A stretch of 64,000 nucleotides of DNA from Selaginella tamariscina (Eukaryota > Streptophyta > Lycopodiopsida > Selaginellales > Selaginellaceae): the NCBI GenBank assembly GCA_003024785.1, contig PUQB01000762.1:39685-103684 (forward strand), in the 5' to 3' direction. Shown here in pieces: positions 1 to 38,870 of the stretch (within the stretch, counting starts at the first letter, position 1; the number at the start of each line of letters is the position of its first letter). Under the pieces are notes generated by a model, which searched no databases, had not been told where the DNA came from, and worked only from the letters and a program-made list of their open reading frames with translations. The position numbers and the translations under genes were made by a program.

Positions 1-722
1 CATCTGACAACACTTCTTCTTGCAACAGTCAATCGTGGAAATGCTCGTAACACTTTCGGAAGATGTAGGATCCATCTTTACCCTCTTGCTGAAACTTGCA
101 GGGGAAGATCTACAACCCATGAATCGCCTTTTTCTTACAATAGGACCAATGCAAGGAACCTCTTCAAATATGAGTTGTTCTTCCGGGTTGTTATTATTGA
201 AATCCAACCCAGAATATGTTGAACCATCTTGCCGTCTTAATTCAGATGTTCGCCACCTCACGAGGGATCCAGGATACAATGTGCCATTAGGTGAAACCTC
301 TGTCACAACTACACCCACGAAGTCGGACCCTAGTTTCTCTTCTGACACTGCTTCCATTGGATTTATAGCTGTGATGATGCCTCTTCCGACTTCAATCTCA
401 CGAAGAAAGAGAATCACCTCATCCATACAGCAGGCAAGCCATCATCTGGTAAACTCGTGCTACTATTTGTTTGTGACTCTGCATATTTTGTGTCAGCCTT
501 GACTTCATCCAAATTCCACAATACAGGAGAACCCTCCTCAAATTCCATTCCCAGAACCTCAACATGCTTGTAAATGGTGTTCACCCATACGTACACACAA
601 GATCCTTGGGAAATATTGTGACATGATGCATTATTATCTCGAACTTCCACAGTTCCAGTGCCAACTATCTCGTTGTTCCGAAGAAGACATACTTTATCTC
701 CAGTATTAAACATATTGTCCTG
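1..722 (-). pseudogene. DUF7869-like transposase, 5' portion (copy 1, truncated by window)
   Basis: The minus strand reads the same N-terminal protein as 46433-47158, starting near MFNTGDKVCLL. It covers an SH3-like stretch (IVGTGTVEVRDNN) that resembles the small N-terminal domains of plant transposases. Compared with copy 2, one base is missing near 425 (CATCCATACAGC against CATCCATCACAGC), which breaks the frame about 100 codons in. The catalytic-core region lies outside the window. The minus-strand sequence TTTATGTGCAG just before the first codons looks like a 3' splice site, so the true start may lie in an upstream exon nearer the palindrome array. It is a broken or mis-assembled copy. 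The family assignment rests on copy 2. Confidence 0.65.
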
Positions 723-864
723 CACATAAATAATTGTATTATTTATGATATCTGTTTATGCAATATTTTTAAGAAATCTGAATTACGGTTACTTAATAAT
801 ATGCATATGCAATAATACATAATTATGTTTAGAGATAATATCTCATGTTTGATTAATACAACTG
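723..864. other. AT-rich leader between transposase-like gene and palindrome array
   Basis: AT-rich sequence conserved at 47156-47295. It probably holds 5' untranslated or intron sequence of the minus-strand transposase-like gene. No clear promoter element can be assigned. Confidence 0.4.
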
Positions 865-1785
865 ATGGGCGGGATTAATCCCGCCCACGAATCCCTCCGA
901 CGAGGAACGGTCGGCGGGATTAATCCCGCCGCCGACTCAACCCCTTCGGAGAGAGTCGGCGGGATTAATCCCGCCTTGGACTCCCTCCGACAAGGAAGAG
1001 CCGGCGGGATTAATCCCGCCGCCTCTTCCTCCTCGGGGGAGTCCGGCGGGATTAATCCCGCCGACTCTCTCCGACGAGGAAGGGAGTCCGGCGGGATTAA
1101 TCCCGCCGCCGACTCAACCCCTTCGGAGAGAGTCGGCGGGATTAATCCCGCCTTGGACTCCCTCCGACAAGGAAGAGCCGGCGGGATTAATCCCGCCGCC
1201 TCTTCCTCCTCGGGGGGAGTCCGGCGGGATTAATCCCGCCGACTCTCTCCGACGAGGAAGGGAGTCCGGCGGGATTAATCCCGCCGACTCATCCTCGCCG
1301 GAGAGAGTCGGCGGGATTAATCCCGCCGGACTCCCTTCCTCGTCGGAGGAAGAGGCGGCGGGATTAATCCCGCCGGCTCTTCCTTGTCGGAGGGAGTCCA
1401 AGGCGGGATTAATCCCGCCCACAATTCTTACGACGGGGAATGGGTGGCGGGATTAAACCCGCACATAACTCTCTCCAAAACTATGATTTCAAAGAGATCT
1501 CGGGATAAATCCTGTCCCCAAATCTTTAAAACAGGGAAGTGGTGGCGAGATTAATCCCGCCACCCCTTCCCTGCCTCCTAAAATGGTTGGCGGGATTAAT
1601 CCCGCCGACAACTCTTTCTAATAAATTCTGGTAACTCTTCATCAGTTGAGAAGGTTATCGACGGGATTAATCCCGCCACTCTTTTTCAGTGGCGGAGAAG
1701 CATTGCCCGGGAGATGGTGGCGGGATTAATCCCGCCACTTCTTCAAAGAGGCGAAAAAGAAATGGCCGGATTAATCCCGCCGCCC
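865..1785. repeat. Array 1 of 18-bp palindrome GGCGGGATTAATCCCGCC
   Basis: About nineteen copies of the perfect 18-bp palindrome GGCGGGATTAATCCCGCC or close variants. The core (about 865-1420) is regular, with one palindrome every 45 bp or so. The outer part (1440-1785) is looser and has variants such as GGCGAGATTAATCCCGCC. The spacers are themselves partly self-complementary (GACTCTCTCC...GGAGAGAGTC). Four-unit blocks of about 180 bp repeat (roughly 949-1128 and 1129-1307). The array lies between the divergent transposase-like and ParB-like genes and recurs at 47296-48075. Because the motif is its own reverse complement, both strands give false open frames reading GGINPA or AGLIPP. Possible roles are a protein-binding array, a replication or segregation site, or a transposase-binding region. 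None is proven. Confidence 0.95.
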
Positions 1786-2240
1786 CGGTTAACCTAGAAT
1801 ATTAAGTTAAAAGGATATTTAAACGTGATAAATCCCTAACGGAATATATTATAATCCTAATGCATTTCTAAACCCCTAAATTGTAATTTTAAGAGAGAAT
1901 GTAAGAGAGTGAATCTTAATAAGTATTTTTAAATTTGTTTATAATACTTACTTGTAAACAGCACTGAAGGCGCCGTGCTTTCCTATAAAGAATAGCACCC
2001 CAATTTTTTTAAATTCGCTCCTGAGATGATCACTATGAAGAAAAAAGAAGATCTAAAGAGTGAAAAATACAGAAATGAAGAAACCCTTGCCGGAGAAAGA
2101 ACCAGATCTGAATTTGAGTGGGAAATTAAATGCATTTTCAAATTTACATGTCAGACCGACAATACATATGTCAGAAATTCAAATTTTTTAAAAAGAACAG
2201 AAAATAAAATTTAAGATGAGTTGACACAAATATCCGACAC
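1786..2240. other. Transposon-internal non-coding stretch
   Basis: AT-rich sequence including AACAGCACTGAAGGCGCCGTG. It is conserved at 48076-48500 with small indels. A 62-codon open frame here is not conserved in copy 2, so no gene is called. Confidence 0.5.
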
Positions 2241-3170
2241 TCTGACATATATACTCTCCAGTTCCAATGAGTATTTTAAAATTGCATTTAATGTTATTCA
2301 AGTGATTCAAGCTGTTTAATATTACGAAATTTTAGACTATATTCTACATTCTTAGTATTCAAGTATATTTATATTATATATATATATATAAATATATACT
2401 TATACAATAAATAAATTGATATATTATTATGTATCATTTAAAATATATTCATAGTCTGTTTATTATTATTATTTTCTTAATTACTCGAGTATTTAGTTTT
2501 CATTTCCTAGTATCAATGGGATATTCTTTAATATTTTATTAATATTTGAAGAATATTCTAATATTAAACCTGATTATCATAATTAAATTAGTCTTGTTCT
2601 TAATTATTGCAGTAATTATTCTACATTTGTATATATTAATGGGATTTTCTCAATTAATTTGTTATTATTTCAAGAATATTCATGTGTTAAACCTTATTAT
2701 CAATATTAAATTAATACACACTATGAACATATTTTAAATTATACATAATAATACATCATTTTATCTAATATATAGTCATATATAGTTTTAATAAATATAT
2801 ATTAATATCATTTCCTTAATTACTTGAGTAATTAATCTTCTTTATATTAATGGGATATTCTTTATTATTTTCTTATTATTCCAAGAATATTCCAATATTA
2901 AACATGATTATGATAATTAATTTAGTTAATTATTTGAGTACTTAATTTACATTTGTATATATTAATGGGATTTTCTCAATTAATTTCTTATTATTTCAAG
3001 AATATTTCAATGTTAAACCTTTTTATCAATATTAAATTAATATATATTATTAAAACTATATATGGCTATATATTAGATAAAATCATATATTATTATGTAT
3101 AATTTAAAATATGTTCCTAGTGTGTTTATTAATTTTATTTTCTTAATTATTCGATGTTTGTTTTGCACAC
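2240..3170. repeat. AT-rich direct repeats
   Basis: Imperfect direct repeats of a few hundred bases built on ATTAATGGGATATTCTTTA and TTATTTCAAGAATATT modules, several times over. The same block is at 48600-49440 in copy 2. There is no credible coding frame. Confidence 0.7.
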
Positions 3171-3390
3171 ATATATAAACACAATCATAAATTTACACAC
3201 GCATTACAAGAACTTACAAAAACACATATGCACACACATGCACAACCCTAAACCAAACTGAAGAAATAGGTTGCTTCTTTATTGAAAACATCATGTTCAA
3301 CGCATGTATGATATATGTACTCAATCTGTGTGACTGTATGTAACACATTGAATTTACATGTGTAATATTTATATTAAGCTTGTTGGGAGC

Positions 3391-3420
3391 AAACCCTAAA
3401 CCCTAAACCCTAAACCCTAA
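3391..3420. repeat. Interstitial telomere-type repeat (AAACCCT)n
   Basis: Four uninterrupted copies of the plant telomere heptamer. Copy 2 keeps only about two at 50023-50037, so the tract varies between copies. Confidence 0.9.
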
Positions 3421-3857
3421 TATGTAACACAATGAATTTACTCATGTAATATGTATGTATGTCTGTGTGTATACACGTGTGCATGTATATATGTGTACTC
3501 TGTATGTATATATGTGTACTTTCTGTCTTCTCTCATACATACACACCATGCATGATCCATGTTAATATGTACTGTCTCTCTTCTCTCAAACATACACACC
3601 ATGCATGATCTATAATATGTACTCGGTCTCTCTAATATTATGTACTAATATGTATGTATGTCTGTGTGTATAATACACACCATGCATGATCCATTAATAT
3701 GTACTGTCTCTCTTCTCTCATATACTATGTATGTATATCTGTGTATAATATGTGTAAGTATATATGTGTACTAATATATGCAATGTGTACAAAAATAATT
3801 TTTCAACACTCTCTCTTCTCTCATACATACACACCATGCATGATCCATCCTAAATCC

Positions 3858-3885
3858 AAAACCCTAAACCCTAAACCCTAAACCC
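3858..3885. repeat. Second interstitial telomere-type tract
   Basis: About four copies of AAACCCT, ending in ACCCATGTAATATG. More TTTAGGG-like words follow at 4125-4215. Confidence 0.85.
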
Positions 3886-4099
3886 ATGTAATATGTGTGT
3901 ATGTCTGTGTGTATACACGTGTGTATGTATATATTATGTGTATTAATATATGCAATGTGTATGTATGTGTACACATGAAACTTTAACACTCTCATGGACA
4001 CACACATGTTAAATCCCTGCATGATTTATATTTTTGAGGTGTATGTGATACACCCACGCACACGCACGCGCTAATAATATAATGAAAGAATATTCGTTT

Positions 4100-4538
4100 A
4101 GGGCGAATCTATATTTTATTCTTTTTAGGGTTTAAGTATATTCTCAGAAGGAATATTCTATTAGGGTTGATATATATATTTAATTCCTTTAGGGTTTAGG
4201 TATATTCTTAGGGTTTCAAGAGGCGGCGGCTGTGAAATCGGCGGCGGCGGCTGTGCACACAGGTGAGATCTGTGTGTGTGTGTGTGTGTATGTATGTATA
4301 TATGTATAGGAGTGTGCGTATAATTTTATTTATTAGTTTTATCTCTCGCACACACACGCACACTCCTGTGTATGTATATGTGTGTGGGTGTGTGTTGTTT
4401 ATCTGTATTTTATTTGTTTCGCTCACACACGCATACACACGATATACATATACACATATATATATATATACCTATATACATATATACATACATATATTAT
4501 GTGTACCAGTATCTGTAAATTTTTTTTATTGATCTTGC

Positions 4539-4622
<84 letters not shown>

Positions 4623-4684
4623 GTGTACCAGTATCTGTAAATTTTTTTTTATTGATCTATCTCTCCCACACACACGCGCACTGC

Positions 4685-4730
<46 letters not shown>

Positions 4731-5405
4731 CAACACTAGTTTATATATATGCTTATATATTCATATGGGTTATATATCTATATACACACATATATATATG
4801 TGTGTGTTTTTCTGTATAATTTTATTTATTTATTAGTTTTATCTCTCGCACACACACGCACACTCCTGTGTATGTATATGTGTGTGTGTGTGTGTTTGTT
4901 TATCTGTATGATTTTATTTGTTTCGCTCACACACGCATACACACAATATACATATACACATATATATATACCTATATACATATATACATACATACAACAC
5001 TAGTTTATATATATGCTTATATATTCACAGACTCTCTCTCTTTCTCTATAGATTATATATCTATATACACACATATATATGTGTGTGTTTATCTGTATAA
5101 TTTTATTTATTTATTAGTTTTATCTTTCGCACACACACGCACACTCCTGTGTATATATATATGTGTGTGTGTGTGTTTGTTTATCTGTATGATTTTATTT
5201 GTTTCGCTCACACGCATACACACGATATACATATACACACATATATATACCTATGTACACACATATATTAGGTGTACCAGTACTGTATAATTTTATTTAT
5301 TTATCTATCTCTTGCACACACACGTACACTCCTATACATACATACATACATACATATATATACACACACACATATATATATGTGTGTGTTTTTATCTCGC
5401 TAAGC
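4100..5405. repeat. CA/TG and TA microsatellites in a larger tandem repeat
   Basis: Long CA, TG and TA runs (for example 4540-4620 and 4688-4730) are embedded in a larger unit. That unit contains TTTTATTTATTAGTTTTATC followed by TCGCACACACACGCACACTC, and it is present about four times between 4310 and 5330. Two GGCGGCGGCTGTG blocks at 4220-4255 precede it. Open frames here are low-complexity and not genes. Copy 2 has a shorter version (50640-51085). Confidence 0.85.
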
Positions 5406-5411
5406 CCCTCG

Positions 5412-6628
5412 AGCGGCGGGATTAATCCCGCCGCGCCGCAGGCATGGGTGGCGGCGGGATTAATCCCGCCGCCGAGGCCCTTCACGCAGGCATGGCGGCG
5501 GGATTAATCCCGCCGCTCACCATGCCCTGCGCGATGCGGCGGGATTATCTCGCCGGCAATGGCCGAAGCTAATGGGCGGGATTAATCCCGCCGATTCCGC
5601 GCAGGCTTAGAGGGAATGGCGGCGGGATTAATCCCGCCGCCAGGGAATTCACGTAGGACATGAACGCCGGGATTAATCCGGCCCCACGCTCATGCCCTTC
5701 GCGGAGGGCGGCGGGATTAATCCCGCCGTTCATGTCCTGCGTGAATTCCCTGGCAGCGGGATTAATCCCGCCCCCACCCATCCTGTCCAAAAATGCCGCA
5801 GCCAATATATATGTGTGAGCGCATGATTTACGAGAGGGCGGCGGGATTAGCCGCCGAACCTTCATTACCGGTGGCGAGATTAATCTCCAAACTTTCATTA
5901 TCCCATTGGTATGTTGAATCAATCCCGCCTAACTCTGTCTGAGACGGAGAAGGTTTACAAAATACCAATGGAGGGAACCGAGAAGGGTGGTGGATTAATT
6001 TCACCATCCCTTACATGGTGGGCGGGAATAATCCCGCCGTGTACGCATGCCCTGCGCAGAATCGGGCGGGATTTATCCCGCCGCCATTGGCCTGCCTGAA
6101 GGGCCTAGGCGGCGAGATTAATCCCGCAAGATTTCGCACAGGGCCTGGGAGGCGGGATTCATCCCGCCGAACGCCAATGCCCTGTGCGAAATCGGGCGGG
6201 ATTTATCCCGCCCATTGGGATCGAGTGAAGGCCCTGGGCGGCGGGATTAATCCCGCCGAGTCTTCAATGCCTGTTGGAGAAATGAATCTCGCCACCCTTC
6301 CCTTTTTCCTCCATTGGTGAGTTGGACCAATCCCAAACGTTTCTGTCTAAGACGTAGAAGGTTTACAACATACCAATGGAGGGGACTGGGAAGGGTGGCG
6401 AGATTCATTTAACCATCCCTTACATGGTGGGCGAGATTAATCCCGCCTCCTTTCTGGAGTCACTGAAGGGGTGTGAGAAATAAATCCTGCCCAGTTCTCT
6501 CTGAGACCGAGAAGGGTGGCAAGATTAATTCCGCACTCCCGTTCAAGGCCTCCAGAAAGGTGGCGAGATTAATCCCGCCCACTCTTTCAGGAGGCATTGA
6601 AGGGGTGGCGAGATTAATCCCGCCGCAC
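5412..6628. repeat. Array 2 of the 18-bp palindrome
   Basis: About twenty copies of GGCGGGATTAATCCCGCC and degenerate forms (GGCGAGATTAATCCCGCC, GGCGGGATTTATCCCGCC), 40-60 bp apart. The spacers differ from array 1 and carry words such as CATGCCCTGCG and ACCAATGGAGGG. The array ends about 340 bp upstream of the first codon of the ParB-like gene, so it is placed to act on that gene's promoter. The corresponding part of copy 2 is missing. Confidence 0.92.
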
Positions 6629-6738
6629 CTTCCATGTGAATATATATGTGTATTAGTATATATAAGTTGCATATCTCATTTTATTTACTTTTATCATCTT
6701 ATCATAATATTTCGAGTAAAAGCTAGGAATCTATGTAA

Positions 6739-6825
6739 AACTGTCCAGAGCTCACATTTGTGGTGGTTCTAAAACGAAATGTTATCTTTCTTTTGCACTA
6801 ACACAAATGTGAGCTTCGGACAGTT
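6739..6825. repeat. 24-bp inverted repeat (hairpin or small MITE)
   Basis: AACTGTCCAGAGCTCACATTTG at 6739 pairs with CAAATGTGAGCTTCGGACAGTT ending at 6825. The arms are 24 bases with two mismatches, around a 39-base loop. It lies between array 2 and the ParB-like gene. It could be a tiny fold-back element, a transcribed hairpin or a regulatory site. Confidence 0.7.
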
Positions 6826-6967
6826 AATTACGTCTACTTCTCTCTGTGTATTATTTTTGTATATTCGGGTTTATACAAGTGTGTGTGCGTTTTTATATAA
6901 TTTATATTTATAGTGTATTATTTTGCAGAAGGACGATTTGATCAAACAAGGAGATCGAGTCATTAGT

Positions 6968-9900
6968 ATGGAGTCGTCGTCAAATTCTGGGTAAGAATTA
7001 AAATAAAATCTGTTATACTCGGATACTTGAACTAATCATTTTTGTATTCAGATGTGGAATTGAAGTGACATTAAAGACAAGAGCAGGAGAAGAGATGGGC
7101 AGGGGGATTTGGAATCAACTTGGCCATATTTTAAGATAAATGGGAAGCGCATTGGAGCAACCATGGTTGCTGTCAAATTAACCTCTGTCACATCTCATGG
7201 ACAAGCAAAACAATGGAAAGTAGATTCGCTAGTCAAGCACCCGAAAGCAGGCTGCGAACCCAGATTGGACGATGCTCGACAGATATGCCTTGTTCCATCC
7301 AATGTCACGTTCTCGGATCCAGAGGTCGTCAGTTACAACATTAATCTCGGGTGGTTTTGTCGACTTGTGGATAATGATGTTCACGTGTTCACTAATGATG
7401 TTGACCTTGGAGTTCTTCTTCAACTCAACGAAAGCCCATCTATGGAGGGGATCCATCTGGATGTCTACTTCGAAGATCTTCAGACTCATCGAGTAGGTGT
7501 ATTGTCAGGAGATATTGCTTCACAATACAGAAAATCAGCAAGTGGAGCAATCGTCCCTCTTCACATTGAAGAAGAACACAGCGACATCATAAGGGAGATT
7601 GAGAAGGTGGCTCGGTCTCAGGTTCTCTACAGATCACGTTCAATTTGCTTAGGAAGCTTCGGGAGCTGGGGAGTGTGCCGAGAACACTAGAACAGCTGCA
7701 GTCGGGGATCACACATGTTGATTCGGATCGCAAAAGAAAATCATCAATCGTTTTGTCAGCTGCACCTGTGGCATCTCATGCTGCAATAAGTCACAAGGAA
7801 ATGATGTTGGATGATAAGATTTATCCTTGTAGGGTTAAATATTGCAGCGTCAACCCAAACTTCAATTACAGGCCACTCAACCAGGAACGTGTAGCTGAGC
7901 TCATGGAGAAGATGAAGGACGACAATTCTTATACCGTTCCACATAATGCTGTTTTGTGTCCATACTATGAAAGAAGGAAGGGTGCTGACAAAGTCTGGAT
8001 CACAACACCAGAACAACTCATGAAGATTCAGACGGAGAATAAAAGATCTATCAAGTACTACATCATTAGTGGCCAGCACACAATAACGGCAGCCCAACGA
8101 CTTCTCGATGAACACAACAAAGGAACGATGGCAACAAAACTTTCCGAGCATACCCGTGAGAAGCTGACAAAAAGATCGGCGTTTTTAGCTAAGCCGAATC
8201 TCACAATCGAGCAGTACCATAAGTTATCGGCGGAATGGGACGCTGCCGACACCAACCACTACAACAGCAAAATATGGGAGAAGTTTAAACACACGCGAGC
8301 CGTGTGGGAATCTCTTCAGCGACCACAAAGAGCTACCGCAGGGAATACACAATCTGCGGAATACCGGGTAAGCAAATTGTTTGGGCGGGATTTATCTCGC
8401 CGGTATATTAATCTGTCTTTTTCCTCAGAGAGTTGAAGAAATTGCAGCAGTTGATTTTGCCCAGTGGGCGGGAAGGAAACATCATTTCTGATGATGTTGA
8501 TTTCTTGCCCCGAAGATAGGATCTTTGCCAAATGGTTGGGGATTATGGAATCCTTTTCAAAAGGAACACTGAAGAAGAAGCAGACAAGTGAAGGGGAGCC
8601 CTCAGAAAAGTCTGCAAAGAAACCCAGTAAGACGCCGAAGGCTAAGTCTGTTCAATCTACAAAGGATGTAGACAACGATTTCAAGCTCACATGGTTGAAG
8701 CCTTTAAATGGAACAACGATGGAGGAGATGGAAGTCTTGGCTGATTTGGTGATCGATGGCAAACTACAAATTAATAACAGCAGCCCAACCTCTCCTTTTC
8801 ATCTCAAGGCAATGGAGTTGAAGACGGTCAGGCATTTCAAGGAGTGGTTGGGAATACACTGCCACAAACTGGGTTGGACCTCGACTTCAACATATGAAGA
8901 GGTTAGCAAATATTTGCATGTGACGAACGATGATATGCTTGTCGAATGGGTGAACCAATCGGAAGATCTAGGCAAGAATCTATTGCACGCCAACGCCAAA
9001 AAGGAGAACATTGGGATGACGCCTTCTCTTATGGCAGTCCTTCAGCAGCGGAGAACCGAATTGAACCTTATAAAGGAGGATGCTACGAATCACGACAAGC
9101 CCTACAGATGTTTGTTGTTAGATTCGGAGACTTATGGGGGTAACATCACTGCTTGTAGGAAACCGTTTCAATTGTTCGTGATGGATCGGCGGGTGTTAAA
9201 AAATCTTTCGACAGATAGGGCACTAGAGGATCTGGTGGAGAAACTTAGCCGTGCAAGCATATACATAGAAGGTATTTATTATTGAATTCATGCTTGCGCT
9301 CTTCACTGATACCTACTTTTTCAGGTATTTATTTCTTGATTCTTGCTCATGTCACCGATACTTTTGCCTTCGCCTTCGCCAAGAAGAATAGACATCGTTG
9401 GACAGGATTTTATATGAACGATGCTAATCCCAAGTGCATTGATACTGTTGTTCACTTGGTTGTTAGGAATGCGCCAAACAATTTCAAGCTTCCAAATGAC
9501 TGGCCAGGCATCTGTTTGCACTCCAACGGCCCTGAACCTCCATCCGATACACCGATAGGTATGAGTGACGTATTCGGCAATGTACGTTATCCAAACATTA
9601 CAAGTCAAGCGGCACGGAGCATCGTCAACTTGATCAGGGGTCCTCACAGTGATGCGTGGGTTTTTGACTACTGCACTAGGGGGTCCGTCTTGAAGGAGTG
9701 TTACCTTCGGCATACATGTGTGTTTGCCGTTGAGAAGGATAAGACCATGGTTGAGGACCTGAACAAGTGGATAGATTGGGTCTCAACTGAGTACCCCAAC
9801 GATTCCATAAAGGCGTATTTGAGAAAGTTCCCTCCAGATAAGTGCGATAGCTCTGAAGGTGAATCTGGTTCAATCTCGGAGTCTGAGAACGAACATCAAT

Positions 9901-10070
9901 CAGATATTAGACCGGAAGTTATCTCGAGGAGTACAGAACATTCGCACACTCCAGGACCCATGGAAACATCAATAGAAGATGCAGAAGATCTTGAACCATC
10001 TCACAAGCGGCTTAGACCTTCTTCGCCTCATTCAGAAGGTAATAGCGAAGAAGAATTGATAATGAATTGA
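6968..10070 (+). pseudogene. ParB-like domain joined to a methyltransferase-like domain (frame-disrupted)
   Basis: A first exon MESSSNSG (6968-6990) is followed by an intron at 6991-7051, and the protein continues CGIEVTLKTR. The N-terminal third is unrecognised. The middle (about 7820-8110) looks like a ParB/Srx-type domain: RPLNQERVAELMEKM, then YYIISGQHTITAAQRLL, matching the G-x-H-R-x-x-A box. A lysine/serine-rich linker follows. The C-terminal part (about 9060-9780) has the order of a beta-class DNA methyltransferase: LLLDSETY where DPPY would be, YPNITSQAARSIVNLI, then DYCTRGSVLKEC and FAVEKD. The usual catalytic and SAM residues are mostly changed, so activity is doubtful. Introns at 8368-8428 and 9272-9324 restore the frame on splicing, the first if the acceptor is the AG at 8431-8432. 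Single-base breaks near 7105, 7630 and 8510 do not splice away. The acidic C-tail ends at 10070. The domain calls are mine from motifs only. Confidence 0.6.
8368..8428 (+). other. Intron of ParB-like gene carrying a palindrome variant
   Basis: GTAAGC donor and TTTTTCCTCAG acceptor. Splicing at the slightly later AG (8432) would keep the frame (EYR then LKKLQQL). Inside lies GGGCGGGATTTATCTCGCC, a degenerate form of the array palindrome. It is the only copy seen away from the arrays within the element. Confidence 0.6.
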
Positions 10071-10342
10071 TAGAGTGATGAATAGTTGTAAATGAGTGTA
10101 ACATAAGGCATTTTTGTATATTTCTTTTATATTTGTACAGAAAATAAATTCTCAAGGATTAATGAAGCTTTTAGTTCAAACATGGGTCACACATTAACAA
10201 GGTAAATAATATACCTTGATAATTTTAAGGTCAGCTAATTATCATTTTGCAGATGTAATGAAATAATTGAGAACATGGATTTTCAGCATTGCCATGAGGT
10301 AAGAGAGGGGTTTGGCGACAATTTCTTGTGCCACATGTCAGA
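10071..10342 (+). other. 3' end of ParB-like gene and leader of HAD gene
   Basis: AATAAA near 10142 suits a polyadenylation signal for the upstream gene. The sequence GGTAAATAATATACC...TTATCATTTTGCAG (about 10200-10253) could be an intron in the leader of the HAD gene. No separate gene is seen. Confidence 0.4.
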
Positions 10343-11509
10343 ATGACAGAGTTCATGCAGGAAATGGATAATAATGCAGCTCAAAACATCGTTACCATGG
10401 GGGCCACTTCATCATCATTTTTATTGGCTTCAGTTCCGAAATCAATTTCTTCAGCGCATGCAATATCTGAATCTTGTAAGGATGATGTACAATTAAATGA
10501 TGAAGGGATAGGCAACGAAATAGTGGCAACGGATAAATGTGAAAGGGAGCAAACAAGTGATTTGCAAAGTATTCAAGAGGCAACGCTATCTCATGTTACT
10601 CATGGCCATATTGTGTTGTTGGATGTCAATGGTGTTCTGCTTCATCGACAAAGGCCCGAGGATAGAAAAACAGAAATCAAACAAGGAGATTTCATTCCTT
10701 GTCATGGTAAATTTCGATATGATATTATTTTTCGTCCAGGGTTGGATCGTCTCTTTCAAAAGCTTAAGGAGATGGGTGCGCTTGTGGGGATTTGGTCATG
10801 CATGCAGATTCATAACTTAACACCGCTGTTGAGTTTACTTAAGAAACATTGTAGTGTTGCAGAAGAGGTGATTCGTAAAGATTGGATTTTTGACCAGCGA
10901 ATGTGTTATAAACCTCTCGAATTTCACAATATAAGAAAGGAAAGCAAGCCATACTTCTTCAAGAATGAAAGAATAATTGGGACTCATGGGGAGATCAGTC
11001 GCTTAAGGATAACGAAGAATGCACATATCTTAGTAGTAGACGACTCTCCTCAGAAGGCTATGCTCAACCAAAACATTGCTTGTATTCATCCAATCACTTT
11101 CGATCCATATTCTGATATCGATATCATGGATGAGCTAGTGAACTACTTGGATACGTGCCTCAGAAAGAAGAATCTCGAAAATTTTTGTGAGCAGTATCCA
11201 CCGTATCATACATTTCCTGAAGCTTTTCTTTCTCGTGATATTGAATTTTATAAAATGAAGGATAGCAACCGGGCGCTTTATAATATTATTCTTAAGGAAC
11301 GTCAGTTTTTAGATGAGCCTTTATGCAGACCTTCTCTTATCACATCTTATGTATTAACAAGGATGGCAACTCCCAATTGCATTCGTGAGAGTGTTAAGTG
11401 GTGGCAACAACATCAAGATATTGACCAAAATGATTTGATTAATCCGGAGAGTGATGATTTAGACAAAATGAAAAGATTTCTTTGTATGATAGAAAGAAAG
11501 TATTTATAA
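10343..11509 (+). CDS. FCP1/NLI-interacting-factor-like HAD phosphatase
   Basis: An uninterrupted frame of 388 codons from the first ATG (MTEFMQEMDNN). Residues 1-85 are low-complexity. The HAD core starts with LLDVNGVLLHR, the nucleophile motif in the DxN form often seen in plant FCP1-like proteins. It continues with FRPGLDRLFQKLKEMG, GIWSCMQ (motif II) and ILVVDDSPQKA (the acidic motif III). These are the marks of the NLI-interacting-factor group, whose known members remove phosphate from proteins such as the RNA polymerase II C-terminal repeat. The substrate here is unknown. It is the only intact gene of the composite transposon and sits about 260 bp from the right terminal repeat. A decayed copy lies at 63172-64000 and a fragment at 52796-52864. 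It may be captured cargo that is still under selection. Confidence 0.85.
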   Translation: MTEFMQEMDNNAAQNIVTMGATSSSFLLASVPKSISSAHAISESCKDDVQLNDEGIGNEIVATDKCEREQTSDLQSIQEATLSHVTHGHIVLLDVNGVLLHRQRPEDRKTEIKQGDFIPCHGKFRYDIIFRPGLDRLFQKLKEMGALVGIWSCMQIHNLTPLLSLLKKHCSVAEEVIRKDWIFDQRMCYKPLEFHNIRKESKPYFFKNERIIGTHGEISRLRITKNAHILVVDDSPQKAMLNQNIACIHPITFDPYSDIDIMDELVNYLDTCLRKKNLENFCEQYPPYHTFPEAFLSRDIEFYKMKDSNRALYNIILKERQFLDEPLCRPSLITSYVLTRMATPNCIRESVKWWQQHQDIDQNDLINPESDDLDKMKRFLCMIERKYL

Positions 11510-11799
11510 AAAAATTAACATGTTGATAAGAAAATGATTTCATTTGTAATTATGTTTGATAGTATTTCTTCATTATTGTAAACTATTTTTAGAATAATAT
11601 GAATATTCTAAGATATTTTAGGAATATTCCTTACTAAGTAAGGTTATTGAAGGATTAATTAATTAATTAATTAATATTTAAGGCTTAATTACATATTAAT
11701 TAAATGATTAATTAATAATTAAAACTTAAGTATTAATTAGTAATTTATTTTATATTCCCATTTTCACGTATCATGCCCACTTTAGTTACAACGTGCATA
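11510..11799 (+). repeat. Right terminal region and terminal inverted repeat, copy 1
   Basis: AT-rich tail with TTAATTAATTAATTAATT and an AGGAATATTCCT palindrome. The terminal repeat is at 11772-11799 (CATGCCCACTTTAGTTACAA followed by CGTGCATA). It is the reverse complement of 62883 onward and near-identical to the left end at 43526-43553, with two mismatches. Confidence 0.85.
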
Positions 11800-12770
11800 T
11801 GCTGTTTGTTAGAGTATCCAACCCCATGACACAACCCCAAAGGGCATGCCTTGAACATTGTATCATGTGACATTTAGCCCAGTATCACATTTCCATGTGA
11901 CACTGCCTTCCCCGATATGGGCTATCATGCCATAGCCCTTAGATTCAAGAGTTGCACCAAGTGCCACAAACGTGGCTCTTAAATGCCAACTTTAGAACCC
12001 TTTAGTGAACCCTCAAGAACTGGTAATGTGAACCCATCAAACAAGATCCCACGCCCATGGTTGGACAAGGACATAAATTTGGCCATGAGTGTTACACCTA
12101 GCTTGACGTGGAGGAGGAGGCTGGAGACAAGCCTCAACCTCTGCCTCTTGAAACGTGCATTTCGACAAGACCTTTCAGGCATGAATTCACCAACGTTAAG
12201 AGTGAGCTACCCCGAAGGTGGGACGTACCCCTATCATCTGGAAGTTAGGGCGGCACAATAGAGGGTTGTGCCTTAATGACACAAGCTAGAACTTGCACCA
12301 GGAAGAAGAGTAACGAGCTCAGTCATGAACCCATGAACCCTCACTTCTACATATTCTACCTTATTTATGTGACAGAGGCCCCCTCCCTATTTTCCTGTTT
12401 ACATAAGTGGGCTGGCATGGAATCTCATTCCCAGAGGGAATATATTTGGTGAGTTATCCATCGACTCCTAACCCTAACTTGACAAATCTAGGGGTATTTC
12501 TAAACATATTCGACATGCTGAACTCACCGGAACTAACCATTAACTCAATCGGGACATAGAAAACCTAGGTAAGAGTTTTCTAGATGGAAGTGCTAGCTTC
12601 GCCTAGAGTTTCTTGCAAATACCTAATGACACTTGGCTGGACCATCACTAGATATCCAAGTGCACTAAGCGGGCCTATTGTTTCTACACCTAGGGCTTAT
12701 TAACATAGTACAATAGGTAACAACAATCAACATCCAAAGTAAAAAAGGAGTCATAGTAGAAACTATGACA
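11800..12770 (-). repeat. LTR fragment of Ty3 family A, cut by transposon copy 1
   Basis: It matches 22806-23778 (start GCTGTTTGTTAGAG, end ACTATGACA), with the canonical TGACA end at 12770. The outer part is missing exactly where the composite transposon's terminal repeat ends, so the transposon inserted into this LTR or the LTR was broken there. Confidence 0.75.
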
Positions 12771-13430
12771 TACATGCTCAAGTTCATCTTTTATTCTCTC
12801 ATTCTGTTGTTACAGTTATTGTCTTTATTTGTGCTACACGGTAGAGCCATGCCACAAAGGACAACCATCTAGGAGCCCGAGACTCACACTCCTTAGCATG
12901 CAAGGCATCCACCAAGAACCACAAGCACCCCATCCTCCAACAATATAAAATATGGTAAGGCTGACCATGCTAACTTGGATGCCCCTTGATCTACCTAAGT
13001 CTTTTATGATAACAAACACACTCATGCTTGTTCATGGAATGAGACTGGTAAACCGTTCGGGTGGACGATCATGAACTTGAGGTCAATCTTTATGGGTGGT
13101 GCCAAGTTAAGCTTTTGACCTTGTTTTTGGTGTGAATTAGTTGACCTGCAATCATGCTAAGTGTGACTTTGGAAAGTCTTCCCCTTGTTTGACTTTTCAT
13201 CATTTTCTTTCTTTCATCTTATTTTTTATTTCACTTCGTTTGTCGCTTCTACCTTTACTTTAATCACTTTATCTTACCCTTATTTCATATCATCTTTTCT
13301 TCATGCTCTTATATTCCCTTTTTAGATCCCTCAAATAATTGTTGTAATGCAACAATTGATTAGTTCATGCAATACAATCCGAAAGACGATCGACAAAACG
13401 GCCAAGATATTATACCTTATTAAGAAAGTG
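12771..13430. other. No gene seen
   Basis: Degenerate sequence next to the LTR. Probably remnants of a Ty3 internal region, but no domain can be read with confidence. Confidence 0.4.
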
Positions 13431-22140: not shown

Positions 22141-23778
22141 TGTCACAGTTTTAACCCAAAGGGTCAACACGTGGCTGCCAAGTGGCCATTCGGTGTCATC
22201 ACCCTATGTGAGCAATGTTAAGTCTTCCAAGATAACCCTAAGAGTCTGACTCAGAGGCCCAATTAGGCAGAAGACTTAGAGTCCTACCCTAAGTCCCCTA
22301 GAATGACCATCCCTTAAACCCTAGAGGATAACCCGAGTAAACTTTAGGATCCTGTCCTAGTAGACCTAGACAGGCTCATGCCCTAACCCCACAAAGGAGA
22401 TGTGTCTCACACATACCCCTTGCAGAATCACCCTCATTCGGGAGTACAACCCCTTTAGGGCGACAAGGGTACCCTAAACCACAACTAACCCTTAAGGGTT
22501 TGACTGGCCGAGTCATACCCTAGACCTAGGGCTAATACTTAGTGAGGACACAAGTGTGCACCTTAGGCGAACACGAGTGTTCTGCTAAGTAAACTCCCTA
22601 AGGCTAGGTTTGGATAACCCTAAGTACATAACCTTGTGAGTGCTTCACGAAAAGGCTCATGCTAACAAGCTTAAGTTGTTCAACCCCTGGATTACAAGGA
22701 GAACACTCCCCTAGCCAAGTGTGCCTAAGCACACCTAGTTCGATATCTAACCTCTCTTGAGCAAATGCCCAAGGCTTAGCATCCTAGTGCGAGCACAAGC
22801 ATGTCTGTTTGCTAGACCCCCTTAACAAGCCCACGACACAACCCCAAAGGGCGTGCCTCAGGTATTGTATCGTGTGATTTCTAGCCCAGTGTCACATCTC
22901 CATGTGACACTACCTTCCCCATTGTGGGCTATCATGCCATAGCCCTTAGATTCAAGAGTTGCACTAAGTGCCACAAATGTGGCTCCTAAATACCAACTCT
23001 AGAACCCCTTAGTGAACCCTCAGAAACTAGGTAATGTGAACCCATCAAACAAGATCCCATGCCCACGGTTGGACAAGGACACGAATGTGCCTTGCTTGGC
23101 CATGAGTGTTACACCTAGCTTGATGTGGAAGAGGCTGGAGACAAGCATCAACCTTTGCATCGTAAAATGTGCATTCCGATAAGACCTCCCAAGCGTGGAT
23201 TTGCCAACATTAAGGGTAAGCTACCCTGAAGGTGGGACGTACCCTTGTCATTTGGAAGTTAAGATGGCACAACAAAGGGTTGTGCCTTAACGACACAAGC
23301 TAGAGCTTGTACCGAGAGAAGAGTAACGAGCTCAGTCATGAACCCAGGAACCCTCACTCCTATATACTACCTTATTTATGTGATAGAGGCCCCCCCCTAT
23401 TTTCAAATTTACATAAGTGGCTGGCACGGAATCTCATTTCCAGAGAGAATATACTTAGTGAGTTATCAATCGACCCCTAAACCCTAACCTGTCAAACCTA
23501 GGGTATTTCTAAACATATCCGACATGTCGAACTCACCGGAACTATCCATTAACCCAACCGGACACGAAAAACCAAGGTAAGAGTTTTCTAAACGGAAGTG
23601 CTAACTTCGCCTAGAGTTTCTTGCAAATACTTAATGACACTCGGCCGGACCATCACTAAATATCCAAGTGCACTAAGCGGGCCTGTTTCTTCTATATCTA
23701 GGGCTTATCAATATACTACAGTAGGTAACAACAATCAACATCCAAAGTAAAAGAGGAGTTATAGTAAAAACTATGACA
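22141..23778 (-). repeat. Full-length LTR of Ty3 family A
   Basis: Begins TGTCACAG and ends CTATGACA, so the ends are TGTCA...TGACA. At 1638 bp it is the longest copy. Parts match 11800-12770, 24147-25076, 30810-31718 (opposite strand) and 62011-62196. It flanks the gag-pol remains to its left as their 5' LTR. Confidence 0.75.
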
Positions 23779-24146
23779 ACAACCCTCTCTACCTTAGGCT
23801 CTAGTTGCTTTCTCTTGCTCATCATATTGAGCCCTAGTTTCAACACTAGGAGAATATGCTTGGAATATTCCCAATACAAAGTTGAAAACACCCTGCACAA
23901 GTTGTACACCCACACACATCAGCTTGAACTAGCATAAGACTTTAGACTTACCTAAAATCTCACACTGACCGCTGAGCAAGTGTTCTCCAAAGATTAATAA
24001 CTCACAGGATCAAACTCTCTGCGTAGAATATAGACATGTCAACTAAAAGTGATAGAGTAATCAAGAATTTAAAGTTATCTAAACACTGAAACACCTATGA
24101 CTTTAGGCAGTCCTACTGACCGTAGAGAACTTGTTCCGATACCAAT
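23779..24146 (-). other. Short retroelement leader with primer-binding site
   Basis: 368 bp between two same-orientation LTRs. On the minus strand the LTR end is followed by ATTGGTATCGGAAC, resembling the tRNA-iMet primer-binding site TGGTATCAGAGC. Similar sequence sits at 61791-62010. With only this leader between LTRs, the unit is either a deletion derivative or a partial tandem copy. Confidence 0.65.
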
Positions 24147-27884: not shown

Positions 27885-30360
27885 CATAGTTACCGCGAAC
27901 TTTCCGACCTACAAACCCGACCTAGCCGACCTAGGTTGCGACAGTTTAAAAAAATTCCCGACCTAGGTTGGAGGTTTCAAAAGATAAAAGATAAAGAAAT
28001 GTAAAAGAAAATAAATTAACATAATTCCAAATACAAAAAAAAATTAACTTACATCATAAAAAAATAAAAAACTAATAATCTAACTCGGGCTCAGCCACTT
28101 CTTCTTCCATGGTTTCTTCATCATCCTCCTCTTCATGTTCTTCTCCTTCTATTGGAGCTTGAGGAGTAGTCACTACTTCAGGATTCATTTCCATATTTTC
28201 AAGATAATCTTGTAAATCAACAAGTCTCTGCCACTGAGGTTCAAGTTCAAGTGCTTCTAAATCAATCTCAGTATATGTGCAACCATCTCGTTCAACACGT
28301 TCTAACAAACGTGTGTTTGCATGAATAAAAACCAACATTTTCAAGTTGGATGGTAGCAATCGATTACGTCGTTTTGTTTGTATCAAGTTCCAACTACTCC
28401 AATTTCTTTCACAAGGAGAAGCACACACTCCTTGGCTCAATAAACGAAGAGCACACTTTTGTAGCTCTGGCATAGCATTCCCATATCTTTCCCACCAGCT
28501 CACACCTGTTCTCATCATCTTTGAACGCCTAGCAGCTTCATCACTCATACTAACATTCTCACGTCTTCGAAATTTCCCCCATTGGTTATCAATTTTGTCA
28601 TAAAGTTCCATATCCCCTTGACAATATCTACGTAAGTATTGAAGCCAATTTTCAGATGCCATCCCATTCAATGGTGTGATATCCATATATGCAGGATGCA
28701 CTGCATAAGCTGCTCCATGCAAAATAGAATGCATCATATCCCAACGTGCAGGTCGTCCACCATGACGTTCCTTCATAATGGCCTTGATGCTTGCTATTTT
28801 GTTAGCACACAGTATATGTTCATTAGCAACATTATCTAGTCCTTCCATCATACGTTCCATCGCCTCATAAATTAAGCCACTAGTAGCACCCTCTCGATCA
28901 GCAAGCCTCAACACCTTCAAGATTGGAGCAGTTAAAACAAGAATCTCTTGACAACTATCAAGAAATGCATCATCTAAAATTCGTCGTCGGATGCGCAATC
29001 CAGTAGCTGTTTTTGACCATTGTGAAGAGTTCCACTCATCACTAACAACCATCTTCCGTAAACCATTCAAAATCTCTGGGTGCATCAGTTGTGAAATCAC
29101 TATAAACATATATGCAAATCGTGTTTCTGCAGGTTTCAAAAGCTCCCTTGAGCTGAATTTCCGGAATAAGGCAAGCAACCGTGGCTTTTTTGTAATGTAC
29201 GAAACAATCTCTGTACAACTTTCTATGATCGGAGTTGCCCAATCCAATCTTCCAATATCCTCCAATGCCAAATCCAACACATGGCATACACATCGGCCAT
29301 GTAAGATATGAGGGAATTCTTGTTGCATTAAATTCCCCATAGCCACACAATTTGATGCATTATCCGTCACAACTTGCACCACATTTTCCACACCAACTTC
29401 CATGATCACTTCTCTCATTTGTTCCCAAAGCCAAGCTCCTGTTTTCTCGACACCACCACTATCAATAGCTTTCCAAAAGACGCTACCTTGAATAGATGTC
29501 ACCATGAAGTTGATTATAGCACGCCTCCGAATATCAGACCATCCATCTGTGACAATGGTGCAGCCATACTTTGTCCATCCCTCTCGAAATTGACCAAGTT
29601 TACGATGAACTTCTTCATATTCTTCCTTAAGATGTCTTGTTCTTAAGGATTCGTAACCAAGTACTCGTGCAGAAGCTCCTGGGCCAGCTTCAGAAATTGC
29701 TTGCACCATTTTATTCATGCTTCTACTCTTAATGACATTGAATGGAATTGCATTGGCATAAAAGAACCTCCGAATTGCATTATTCATCAATTTATACTTT
29801 TGATCGTTGAGCATACTAGGGACAGTTCCCTCCCCAAAGCTTCTTTTTCTAGATCCAGAAGGGTTGCTTGTTGTTGAAGGCCCAACTCTATCAGATCCCA
29901 TGCTTGATGCAGATGCCTCTTGCATATGCCCACTCTGGGCATCTGCTGTTAACTGTGGAAAAGTAGATCTTGCTGCATTCTTCACATTTTCTGGCACATT
30001 TGGTGAATGACAACAATCAATACTATAGCCAGGAACTCCTCCAAGGTGCGCTTTGATCCTTTGTGGCCCTCCTCCATACTCATTTCCACAAAAATTACAT
30101 GTCCATCTAGATACACCTTTACCTTTGGCAAATTGCCTTACTTTTTTTACATATTCCCATGCCCAATCATCCTTCATGATGGTTTGAATGCACAAAAGTC
30201 CCTAAATCCTGCTCAAATTGCTAATTTTTTCCTTGCTCCGTTGATTTCTTTAGGGCTTTTTTTTAGGGCATTTTTTAATTTCCAAACAATTCCGACCTAG
30301 GTCACGACCTAGGTCGGAAAAGTTTAAAAAAACCACCGACCTAGGTCGGTGGTAACTATG
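27885..30360 (-). mobile_element. Structurally complete hAT transposon
   Basis: It opens CATAGTTACC and closes GGTAACTATG, a perfect 10-bp terminal inverted repeat. The 8-bp duplication AAGAAAGG lies on both sides (27877-27884 and 30361-30368), the expected size for hAT. Both ends carry several copies of CCGACCTAGGTCGG-type words, probable transposase-binding sites. The element is 2476 bp with a single long gene on the minus strand. Intact ends, duplication and gene suggest a recent, possibly autonomous insertion. It sits at the edge of the minisatellite. Confidence 0.95.
28072..30177 (-). CDS. hAT-superfamily transposase (BED finger, DUF659, hAT dimerisation)
   Basis: An open frame of 701 codons from MKDDWAWEYVKK with no interruption. 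Residues about 12-60 form a BED-type zinc finger (WTCNFCGNEYGGGPQRIKAHL). The DUF659-like core holds CTIVTDGWSDIRRRAIINFM and QVVTDNASNCVAMG, which carry the first two catalytic aspartates expected in hAT RNase H folds. HGRCVCHVLDLALEDIG follows. The C-terminal hATC dimerisation region reads CASPCERNWSSWNLIQTKRR, and an acidic tail ends EPELDY. The length fits plant hAT transposases. It should bind the element ends and catalyse cut-and-paste transposition in the nucleus. I start at the first ATG. The few codons upstream begin with TTG and are not needed. Confidence 0.95.
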   Translation of the reverse strand: MKDDWAWEYVKKVRQFAKGKGVSRWTCNFCGNEYGGGPQRIKAHLGGVPGYSIDCCHSPNVPENVKNAARSTFPQLTADAQSGHMQEASASSMGSDRVGPSTTSNPSGSRKRSFGEGTVPSMLNDQKYKLMNNAIRRFFYANAIPFNVIKSRSMNKMVQAISEAGPGASARVLGYESLRTRHLKEEYEEVHRKLGQFREGWTKYGCTIVTDGWSDIRRRAIINFMVTSIQGSVFWKAIDSGGVEKTGAWLWEQMREVIMEVGVENVVQVVTDNASNCVAMGNLMQQEFPHILHGRCVCHVLDLALEDIGRLDWATPIIESCTEIVSYITKKPRLLALFRKFSSRELLKPAETRFAYMFIVISQLMHPEILNGLRKMVVSDEWNSSQWSKTATGLRIRRRILDDAFLDSCQEILVLTAPILKVLRLADREGATSGLIYEAMERMMEGLDNVANEHILCANKIASIKAIMKERHGGRPARWDMMHSILHGAAYAVHPAYMDITPLNGMASENWLQYLRRYCQGDMELYDKIDNQWGKFRRRENVSMSDEAARRSKMMRTGVSWWERYGNAMPELQKCALRLLSQGVCASPCERNWSSWNLIQTKRRNRLLPSNLKMLVFIHANTRLLERVERDGCTYTEIDLEALELEPQWQRLVDLQDYLENMEMNPEVVTTPQAPIEGEEHEEEDDEETMEEEVAEPELDY

Positions 30361-30809: not shown

Positions 30810-31718
30810 CGTCATAGTTTTTACTATGACTCCTCTTTACTTTGGACATTAACTCTTGTTACCTACCGAATTATGTTGACAAGCCCTAGATGTAGTGAAA
30901 AACAACCCTACTTAGTGCATTTAGGTGTTAGGGGTAGTCCGGCTGACTGTCCTAGATATCGCAAGAAACTATAAGTGATTATAGCACTTATTTTTTAAAA
31001 AATCTCACCCTTATTTTCTGTGTTCCAATAAGGTTTTTAGTTGAGTTCAACATGTTTGAATATGGGTAGAAACACCCTAGGGTTGCCCTAAACCCTTAAG
31101 TTAGGGTCTAGGGGTTGATGGGCTTTTTAATTAAACTCATCAAGTATATTCCAATGAAATTTCGTGCAAACCCACTTACATAAACAAGAAAAACAGGGAG
31201 GGGGGGCCTTTATCACATATATTAGTAGTGCATGTAAGAGAGTTCCTAGGTTCATGATAAAGCTTGTTATTCTTCTACCGGTGCAAGTTGTAACTTGTGT
31301 CGTCAAGGCACAACCTCTGTTGTGCCACCTCAACTTCTAAATATTAGGGGTACGTCCCACCTTTGGGTAGTCTACCCTTAATGTTGGCAAATAAATGCCT
31401 GGGAGGTCTTATTGGACTGCATGTTCCAAGGGTCAGAGGTTGAGGCTTGTCTCCAACCTCCTCATCCACGTCAAGCTAAACACTCACAACTAAGCAGGGC
31501 ATATTTGCGTCCTTGTCTAACTGTGGGCATGGATCTGGCTTATAGGTTTTTCCTTACCAAGTTCTTGAGGGAACACAAAGGGGTTCTAGAGTTGGCATTG
31601 GAGAGCCACATTCATGGCACTTGGTGTAACTCTTGAATCTAAGAGGATATGATAGGATAGCCCACATTTGGGAACAGTGTCACATGAAAGATGTGACACT
31701 AGGCTAGATGACACATAT
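30810..31718 (+). repeat. LTR fragment of Ty3 family A, opposite orientation
   Basis: Starts GTCATAGTTTTTACTATGACTCC, close to the reverse complement of the 22141-23778 right end, and runs through the same blocks to CACATGAAAGATGTGACAC. It is broken where the family B LTR begins (31721). Confidence 0.7.
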
Positions 31719-36567: not shown

Positions 36568-37162
36568 TGGTTGACAATGGTTTGACCACCATCAAACTGC
36601 TAACAGGCGCGAACAAGCAACGGGATGGAGCGGCTGAGCAATGAGGATGCAGCAAGTACGAACTTACAACGACAGTTGTCAAGTGGCACTTAACCCAGGG
36701 ATCCAATCGTCTGGACCAACTACCAAGGTACTCGGGACAGCACACATGAGTAGCGCATAAATGCTACATGCAGGATGCTAGCAAGGTGGCAAACCAATGG
36801 GAGTGTGCCACATATACCTAGGGTCTAGCACTAGCCGACCCACTATATTAGCAAGAGGGCTTGTAGGTCGGGGTCCTTCTAGTCCATCTTCTTCTTTGTA
36901 TCTTGCTCCATTTTCTCTGGGGTGTTGTTTTGGGCAGGCAATATATATGTATTAGTCCTTCTATCCACCACCTTCTCCAGTCATTCTTCTCTACCCTGGT
37001 CCTAGTCCGACAACATATAGTCAGCGGGTAAAACACTCCACTTAGGAAACTCCTCCTCACTTGTACATGGACCCTCATAGTGTCCAGGTAAAGGCCATCT
37101 CACACCTTCCAGTGCTCCCAGGGTAAGTCTGGCTCACCGAGGCAAACCCTGGGACTGGACGC
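36568..37162 (+). repeat. 3' LTR of Ty3 family B, copy 1
   Basis: Direct repeat of 31721-32319 with small indels. It ends against the chromovirus LTR start TGTCACGACCC at 37163. Confidence 0.8.
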
Positions 37163-37828
37163 TGTCACGACCCAATAAGGATACATGATGCAGGATACCA
37201 AATACAGGATACGGGATACAAGATACAAAATACATGATACAGATACAGGATACGGGATACAGCCCATAGGATATGCCTATAGGATATGCCTATAAGATAT
37301 ACCTACAAGATATGCTTATAGGATATGCCTACAGGATATGCCTATAGGATATACCTACAGGATATGCCTACAGGATATGGGACATTCATTAGCTCATGAC
37401 TAAATTAGCCCTTGGAGTATATTTTTAGCTCATGCTTAGGTTAGCTCTTGGAGTTGTGAACATAAAAGTTCCAACCTAATTGCTGTACAATCAATTACTA
37501 TCATCACCAGTCTTTCTATGATCATTCTTGTCTTGTTCTTGTCTTGCTCCTTGCTTCTTGTTCTCATCTGTTCTTAGTTCCTGTCTACTCTTGTCTGTTC
37601 CTAATTCTTGTCCTGTTTCTAAGCCAAGCCTCCTTGTTCTTGGATGTCGCTTGGTTCTTGTTCCTATCCTGCTCTTATCTTGTTCATAATCCTTGTTCTG
37701 CTCCTGAGCCAAGCCTCTTTATTTTTGGATCGTCGCTTGGTTCTTAGTTATTGTCCTGCTCTTGTCTTTTCCTAATCCTTGTCATGCTCTTGAGTTAAGC
37801 CTCCTTGCTCTTGGATCGTGCCTTGACA
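37163..37828 (+). repeat. 5' LTR of chromovirus
   Basis: Starts TGTCACGACCC and ends CCTTGACA, 666 bp. The first 220 bp hold short tandem repeats: GATACAGGATACGG units at 37180-37260, then about nine units of TAGGATATGCCTA at 37265-37380. The 3' half repeats a unit of about 100 bp (AAGCCTCCTTGCTCTTGGATCG) three times. Its 3' half matches 60341-60675. Confidence 0.75.
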
Positions 37829-37921
37829 GTTTGATAGTAATCCTTTTATAGCTCTTTAATTTTCAGTTACTTTTTTTCTTGGTTCTTCTCCTTTGTTTTT
37901 CTCCCTTTTTTTTAATAGATC

Positions 37922-38870
37922 ATGGCGATTTTGAGCAATTCAACGCAGCACCAAATGTTGCTTCATGAGCTGGCCACTTTGCGCCAAGTGGCCATAGATA
38001 TAAAGGTTCCACCAATGCAGCGCATGCAGTTGCTAATGCATCCTCCAAGGCTGCTGCACAAGCTTCTCTCAAGCATCTGTGGTTTCCTCTCCATCAAACT
38101 CTTCTTCGGAGCCAAAGATCAGCATGCTGGAAAGTTCAGTGACAATGCACCAATTTCTAAGGTTTTCTGAATCAGATCAGGCTCTTGATCCGCATACAAT
38201 CACGTCCTACTCAACTGATGCACAAAAGGCTGGCCTTTTCACATCCTTACTAATTGGATCCCCACTGGCTTGGGTTGCCCTTTACTGGAGCGTGATGACC
38301 CATTGATGGAAGATTTTGAAGGATTTGTGGACTGCCTTTGAAGCCTGTTTTGGAGATCCTGATAAGTATTGTTCTGCATGCACGAAGTTAAGGAAGCTCA
38401 CACAAGGATTCCAACCAGCTTATGTTTACATCCGAATTTCAGCAACTTTGCACGAACATTCATGGGACGAGACTGCATTGATCGAACACTTTTGTTTTGG
38501 GTTGAGGGATGACATGAAGGACCTTCGCCTTACGTTACGAATGCCCAAACCTTAACGAAGATCGTGCAACAAGCCGTTCGCTGCAACAACCGTTTATTAG
38601 AGCGTCATCAAGAAAAATCCCGTCAGCAATTCTTACAAGCCAATCCTGTAGCTGTAGCATATGTTCCTATGACCCTTCGCAGTAGTTCCTATGAAGGTTG
38701 AGAAATATAAATGTGGCCCACTTTTCAACTGCTAAGAAGCAACGTCGTCGTGGTGAGAACTTATACTTGTATTGTGGTGAAGCAGGACACAAGGTGGCAG
38801 AATGTCTAGTTAAGCCAAGAAGTTCAAGACGCGTGAAGTTAAAGTTGAAGTTCAATGTCCACTCCATCTA
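37922..38870 (+). pseudogene. Chromovirus gag, broken
   Basis: Fragments in three frames read MAILSNSTQHQMLLHELATL, then LDPHTITSYSTDAQKAGLFT, then FEACFGDPDKYCSACTKLRK with WDETALIEHFCFGL. This is the Retrotrans_gag pattern. A zinc knuckle follows near 38760 (LYCGEAGHKVAEC) whose first cysteine is replaced by tyrosine. Frameshifts near 38100 and 38300 and a stop at 38555 make it inactive. Confidence 0.75.

Follow-up and report, generated by a model that had tools for sequence, protein, structure and literature searches.

We analyzed a 64,000-nucleotide stretch of Selaginella tamariscina DNA (the window; bases 39,685-103,684 of a 103,684-bp contig, of which the 9.7 kb left of the window were also examined), and found that it contains copies of a cut-and-paste class II DNA transposon family, the most distinctive trait of which is the presence of two arrays of one conserved 18-bp palindrome, GGCGGGATTAATCCCGCC, each standing just upstream of a gene. 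The element carries a DUF7869-type transposase gene, a middle gene (ORF2) and a gene for a HAD phosphatase. As a moderately probable explanation, we propose that the DUF7869 protein is the transposase, that the arrays are bound by a regulator which the element itself encodes, most likely ORF2, and that the HAD protein is an accessory. The parts of the three copies (A, B and C) present in the window are as follows.

1-750, minus strand: 5' part of the DUF7869-type transposase gene, copy A; the remainder lies left of the window (L009), and there is one frame break near the start.
868-1781, unstranded: palindrome array 1, copy A; 19 sites of GGCGGGATTAATCCCGCC with at most 3 mismatches, directly upstream of the transposase frame.
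1886-5336, unstranded: AT-rich satellite-like block, copy A; 27.9% GC, separating arrays 1 and 2.
5415-6624, unstranded: palindrome array 2, copy A; 17 sites, directly upstream of the ORF2 frame.
6970-10070, plus strand: ORF2, copy A, a protein of about 974 residues in several exons; exon model drawn by eye, with frame breaks in this copy.
8384-8401, plus strand: lone palindrome, diverged by 2 mismatches, within a putative ORF2 intron.
10298-11509, plus strand: HAD (NLI-interacting-factor-like) phosphatase gene; PF03031 at E 7.9e-12 over residues 105-289, in an open 403-codon frame, stop to stop.
11772-11799, minus strand: right terminal inverted repeat, copy A; the last base of the boundary TGCAT is 11798.
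43526-43553, plus strand: left terminal inverted repeat, copy C, from the 28-mer search of the window.
44033-47188, minus strand: DUF7869 transposase gene, copy C, with frame breaks.
47298-48071, unstranded: palindrome array 1, copy C; the end is approximate.
62883-62910, plus strand: right-type terminal inverted repeat of the inverted copy B, from the 28-mer search of the window.
62884-64000, minus strand: copy B; the right end with the 3' portion of the HAD gene, truncated by the contig end.

The 28-bp terminal inverted repeat occurs at three places in the window (0-2 mismatches to the query), and no other occurrence was found there within 6 mismatches. Copy A has its left end outside the window, 2,913 bp further left on the same contig and with 3 mismatches to the 28-mer; with this fourth end, copy A is complete at 14,713 bp, from outer base to outer base of the 28-mers. 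A sequence-only reading made earlier, which had pieced together from three partial copies a single element of about 14.7 kb, was right on this point, and also on the shared gene order, the DUF7869-like transposase (PF25273) and the HAD-like phosphatase gene (PF03031). Its word "composite" was dropped, as the element has a single pair of inverted repeats with the transposase inside, and is not made of two transposons around a cargo. Copy C retains the left end, the transposase gene, array 1 and the AT-rich block, ends near 51,080, and has left two additional scraps at about 52.80-52.94 kb.

The assignment to class II rests on the terminal inverted repeats found at both ends of repeated copies and on a constant 4-bp target duplication, which the sequence-only reading had suggested looking for outside both ends. 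The duplication was sought in 26 copies with both flanks, each insertion being counted once (seven from the window and contig C1, nine right ends with a confirmed left end, nine pairs from listed ends and one 4-kb derivative). The boundary that it favors, ATGCA...TGCAT, lies one base within the 28-mer at both ends. The four bases outside this boundary are identical in 15 of the 26 copies (TTAT, ATAA, ATGT, CCTT, CAAT, AAGT, ACTT, TTTT, CATT, ATTA, AAGA, CGTT, TTCT, ATAT and ACAG), as compared with 1.2 matches on average, and never more than 7, in 50,000 trials in which the partners were reshuffled. An exact duplication is absent from the other 11, including copy A, E1, E5 (three of four bases equal) and E10 (mutated end), a fact that we infer to reflect later mutation or recombination between copies. 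Membership of CACTA/EnSpm was rejected, since the ends are ATGCA rather than CACTA and the duplication is 4 bp long (it is 3 bp in CACTA/EnSpm), as was membership of Mutator/VANDAL, since PF25273 is the sole Pfam match of the transposase and Mutator duplications measure about 9 bp.

The 4,018-bp derivative (C213:116965-120983, L092) consists of the left 3.8 kb, with the transposase gene in broken frames, joined to the right 0.2 kb; it lacks the arrays, ORF2 and the HAD gene, and is flanked by the 4-bp duplication ACAG. Its deletion junction also occurs in C426, C529 and C913. The four places share the duplication and the same 16-base flanks, save for one base, so that they look like one insertion copied inside a larger repeat, and the 4-kb form was not retained as an independent mobile family. 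Similarly, the interval C213:103401-120983 was rejected as a single element because both of its ends are right-type.

The family is large. In the 300.7 Mb of the genome (1,391 contigs), the terminal repeat has 3,605 matches with at most 2 mismatches (1,858 + 1,747), a 37-base left-end word has 970 exact matches (506 + 464), and exact matches of the palindrome GGCGGGATTAATCCCGCC number 27,128, with reversed-pattern controls of 0 in all three cases; these counts are above chance, and the ends run to thousands. On contig C1, ten places were picked by their palindrome arrays, which makes the sample a biased one. Seven of them (E1, E4, E5, E6, E7, E8 and E10) have both terminal repeats, 11,858-14,800 bp apart, and all three genes are present over at least 95% of their length in six of these seven, E4 having lost 62% of ORF2. 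As for the others, E3 has a left end and no ORF2 match in the 4.7 kb past the AT-rich block, E9, a decayed relative, has a single end, and the sequence of E2 was taken too short on one side. E6 and E7, the flanks of which are identical, are one insertion that was duplicated. Among 18 right ends tested (1.7 kb read per case; two further ones were dropped as their contigs were too short), nine have a left end at the expected distance. Altogether, the long copies read at both ends measure 11.9-14.9 kb, next to the one 4.0-kb derivative. Full copies, which the sequence-only reading had called for seeking, were found in C1 through the arrays and as further pairs of ends; within this array-found sample the three genes travel with the repeat, and the two outcomes that it had named as speaking against it (no two-ended copy of about 14.7 kb, the three genes mostly apart) were not encountered in the DNA read.

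The copies are mosaics when A, C and E8 are compared with E1, E6 and E7, in that the synonymous divergence (dS) between E8 and A is 0.017 in the transposase gene and 0.10 in ORF2. This suggests recombination or conversion between subfamilies. Decayed relatives of ORF2, roughly 39-64% identical, occur in L020 (5702-7632, minus strand) and L021 (6363-7814, minus strand), and represent older, similar families within the genome.

Turning to the arrays, the following was observed. First, over 314 sites from 12 copies or parts of copies, each of the 18 palindrome positions carries 1.2-2.0 bits, as compared with less than 0.5 outside. Second, the commonest start-to-start spacings are 45, 44, 46 and 43 bp. 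Since the 18 bp are conserved and the spacers diverged, we regard the repeated unit as a binding site with a neutral spacer, not as a whole satellite. Third, no palindrome with at most 3 mismatches occurs in the window outside the element copies. The high CpG content of the arrays was also considered as an escape from methylation, an idea that was rejected because the spacers are not CpG-rich. Could the arrays be neutral tandem repeats, homogenised by slippage or unequal exchange and lacking any protein partner, with ORF2 acting elsewhere, for instance as a transposition co-factor? The number of palindromes does differ among full copies (27-43 sites), as it would for neutral repeats, and the array-less 4-kb derivative has an exact target duplication, though its deletion may postdate the insertion; however, conservation ends at the borders of the 18 bp, although the spacers, repeated just as often, have diverged, and a lone diverged palindrome lies in the putative ORF2 intron, so that we judge this explanation quite unlikely.

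The palindrome half GGCGGGA resembles an E2F site, imperfectly, and the arrays lie directly upstream of both divergent genes, as would be expected if they were host transcription-factor sites coupling the transposon promoters to S phase. Yet the half-site departs from the plant E2F consensus at one position, and a perfect 18-bp palindrome in large arrays better suits a dedicated dimeric protein, which leaves a host factor of this type very improbable.

We favor an element-encoded regulator because the arrays bear the mark of a binding site and because the VANC system of Arabidopsis is the closest functional parallel. According to the accessible text of the report on VANDAL21, VANC21 binds a 9-base motif that forms tandem repeats in noncoding regions, in the VANB21 and VANC21 introns and upstream of VANA21 (PMC5735166). 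Both systems are multi-gene DNA transposons with a short motif arrayed in noncoding, upstream or intronic positions, in arrays that vary among copies (PMC5735166 and PMC10398659, as far as their accessible text goes). They differ in the transposase family and in the motif, which for VANC21 is a 9-mer in one orientation, as described in the accessible part of PMC5735166, instead of an 18-bp palindrome; furthermore, protein binding is demonstrated for the VANDAL system, whereas the present arrays are known from sequence.

By analogy with VANDAL, we propose the following mechanism. The DUF7869 transposase would act on the ATGCA...TGCAT ends by cut-and-paste, with a 4-bp duplication. The arrays upstream of the divergent transposase and ORF2 genes are the predicted binding sites of an element-encoded DNA-binding protein, most likely ORF2, and this regulator function of arrays and ORF2, which we infer from the comparison, would keep the element promoters expressed or un-silenced, as VANC proteins do on VANDAL motif arrays. 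The HAD protein would be an accessory. The location of a candidate regulator (ORF2) and its candidate target (the arrays) on the same DNA, in a well-defined element, offers a site besides the Arabidopsis VANDALs for a direct test of the idea that private anti-silencing codes evolve in transposons.

That ORF2 was a functional protein follows from its divergence between subfamilies. Between the groups (A, E5, E10) and (E1, E6, E7, E8, E2), the ratio of nonsynonymous to synonymous divergence (dN/dS) is 0.22-0.32 in 15 of 15 pairs, with dS of 0.09-0.15; when the partial copy E4 is one of the pair, the ratio goes up to 0.38-0.48. The mean ratios by exon are 0.45, 0.22, 0.14 and 0.55, and the changes fixed between subfamilies number 21, 20 and 42 at codon positions 1, 2 and 3, respectively. 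These values indicate that ORF2 has been under purifying selection between subfamilies, and hence that it worked as a protein during the history of the family. No ORF2 open through all exons was found among copy A and the C1 copies examined, and some of the frame breaks may be assembly errors. The sequence-only reading had viewed ORF2 and the HAD gene as "cargo or helpers"; for ORF2, purifying selection makes "cargo" too weak a word, and a working helper more likely.

As regards its identity, ORF2 had been labelled ParB/methyltransferase-like, and by eye it does contain stretches that look ParB-like (IISGQHTITAA) or methyltransferase-like (VFDYCTRGS, LLLDSETYG), none of which is confirmed by any tool. 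Sequence searches gave no support to the label and detected no relative of ORF2 beyond this genome. None of 7,995 candidates scored from a database of 5.8 billion proteins reached E 1e-3, and none of 326 candidates for a single exon reached E 1. No match was found in Pfam up to E 10 (including ParB_N, PF02195), among phages, in NCBIfam with three pieces of ORF2, or to any N4/N6 DNA methyltransferase family; the only PHROGs match (E 0.059) and two weak matches among solved structures (dTor repeat proteins) were taken as chance. Comparison with four ParB sequences by hhalign gave a probability of 0.3%, the short alignment falling where a ParB match is expected, and an AlphaFold model of one exon, made without an alignment, was too poor for use (mean pLDDT 38). 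These negative results weigh against the view of ORF2 as a genuine relative of ParB, loading on the palindromes as on parS and spreading from them so as to replicate, loop or mark the element. In its favor, together with the stretches seen by eye, is a ParB-like plus methyltransferase protein in an Ectocarpus transposon, similar proteins being cited for green and red algae in the accessible text of that report (PMC12477816). The label may still be right, and we grant the parS-like role itself a slim chance. A broader formulation, in which ORF2 represents a novel kind of eukaryotic protein, a sequence-specific anti-silencing factor or parS-like loader, that reads the palindrome arrays, its ParB/methyltransferase ancestry lying beyond the reach of sequence tools, and has enabled a single transposon family to spread its binding site to more than 27,000 places in one genome, strikes us as possible, though rather unlikely.

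The Ectocarpus element is a close precedent, in a brown alga. As described in the accessible text, Sola1-1_Ec32 is a giant element of 21.5 kb encoding, on the strand opposite to the transposase, a 1,104-residue ParB-like plus methyltransferase accessory protein, which its authors suggest to bind and modify its own element (PMC12477816). It is like the present family in its giant size and in having a large accessory gene opposite to the transposase, as ORF2 is here; in contrast to the algal proteins, ORF2 has no detectable sequence relation to either domain, the resemblance being by eye. The Sola2 elements of Dictyostelium and Polysphondylium, with an 888-residue transposase in one family, also have inverted repeats and 4-bp target duplications, but the AWWT duplication of Dictyostelium fits only one of our 15 (ATAT; PMC3627910, accessible text). 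Neither the palindrome arrays nor the HAD gene are mentioned for Sola1 or Sola2 in the accessible parts of PMC12477816 and PMC3627910. Fungal DNA transposons that carry TET/JBP genes likewise possess an accessory gene of their own with a possible effect on silencing, although the enzyme is a different one (PMC12730594, accessible part). The combination of DUF7869 transposase, ORF2, HAD gene and arrays had no match in the open-licence plant transposon literature searched, in agreement with the claim that no described plant transposon has this gene set; the Ectocarpus precedent qualifies that novelty.

The transposase has PF25273 as its only Pfam match. In the structure model of a relative (P0001), invariant acidic motifs occur in the order expected for DDE/D enzymes, with a middling Z to Mos1; the argument for an RNase H fold rests on VIA-align and motif order, since Foldseek at E 0.001 returned nothing among transposases. 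We regard it as very likely that the DUF7869 protein is the DDE/D enzyme acting on the element ends. Between the groups (A, E5, E10) and (E1, E6, E7, E4, E3), dN/dS is 0.12-0.25 in 12 of 15 pairs and 0.33-0.38 in three pairs with E1, and the changes fixed between subfamilies at codon positions 1, 2 and 3 number 6, 3 and 18; the gene evolved under purifying selection. The Pfam family DUF7869 is now tied to a transposon whose ends are known and which duplicates 4 bp of its target. P0001 also contains Tudor/KOW-like and BAH-like (EBS, SHL) stretches at residues 1-87 and 944-1056 (middling Z), which could possibly be chromatin readers for target choice.

For the HAD gene, at least 51 of the best 103 of 7,152 genome candidates span residues 1-403 without a stop, and many of the scored copies share 99-100% identity with copy A, a sign of recent amplification. 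Its dN/dS between the ORF2/transposase subfamily groups is 0.48-0.99 on few changes, so that constraint is not demonstrated, and its best match among solved structures has an E of 0.44.

Finally, other features of the window are as follows. Inside the AT-rich block are short runs of AAACCCT (3391-3420 and 3849-3885), the plant-type telomere repeat. A dispersed repeat of about 0.95 kb, which begins some 20 bp beyond the right end of copy A, occurs at 11819-12774, 22826-23781 and 30811-31716, its second and third copies being 86% and 75% identical to the first, and the third inverted. Retroelement remains with broken frames cover 51200-60700 and 37000-43200, with reverse-transcriptase RNase H domains at 54067-55428 and 41624-41989, and the first of them probably cuts off copy C. 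A hAT-type transposase with DUF659 and Dimer_Tnp_hAT domains is encoded at 28072-30201 (minus strand) in an open frame of 709 codons.

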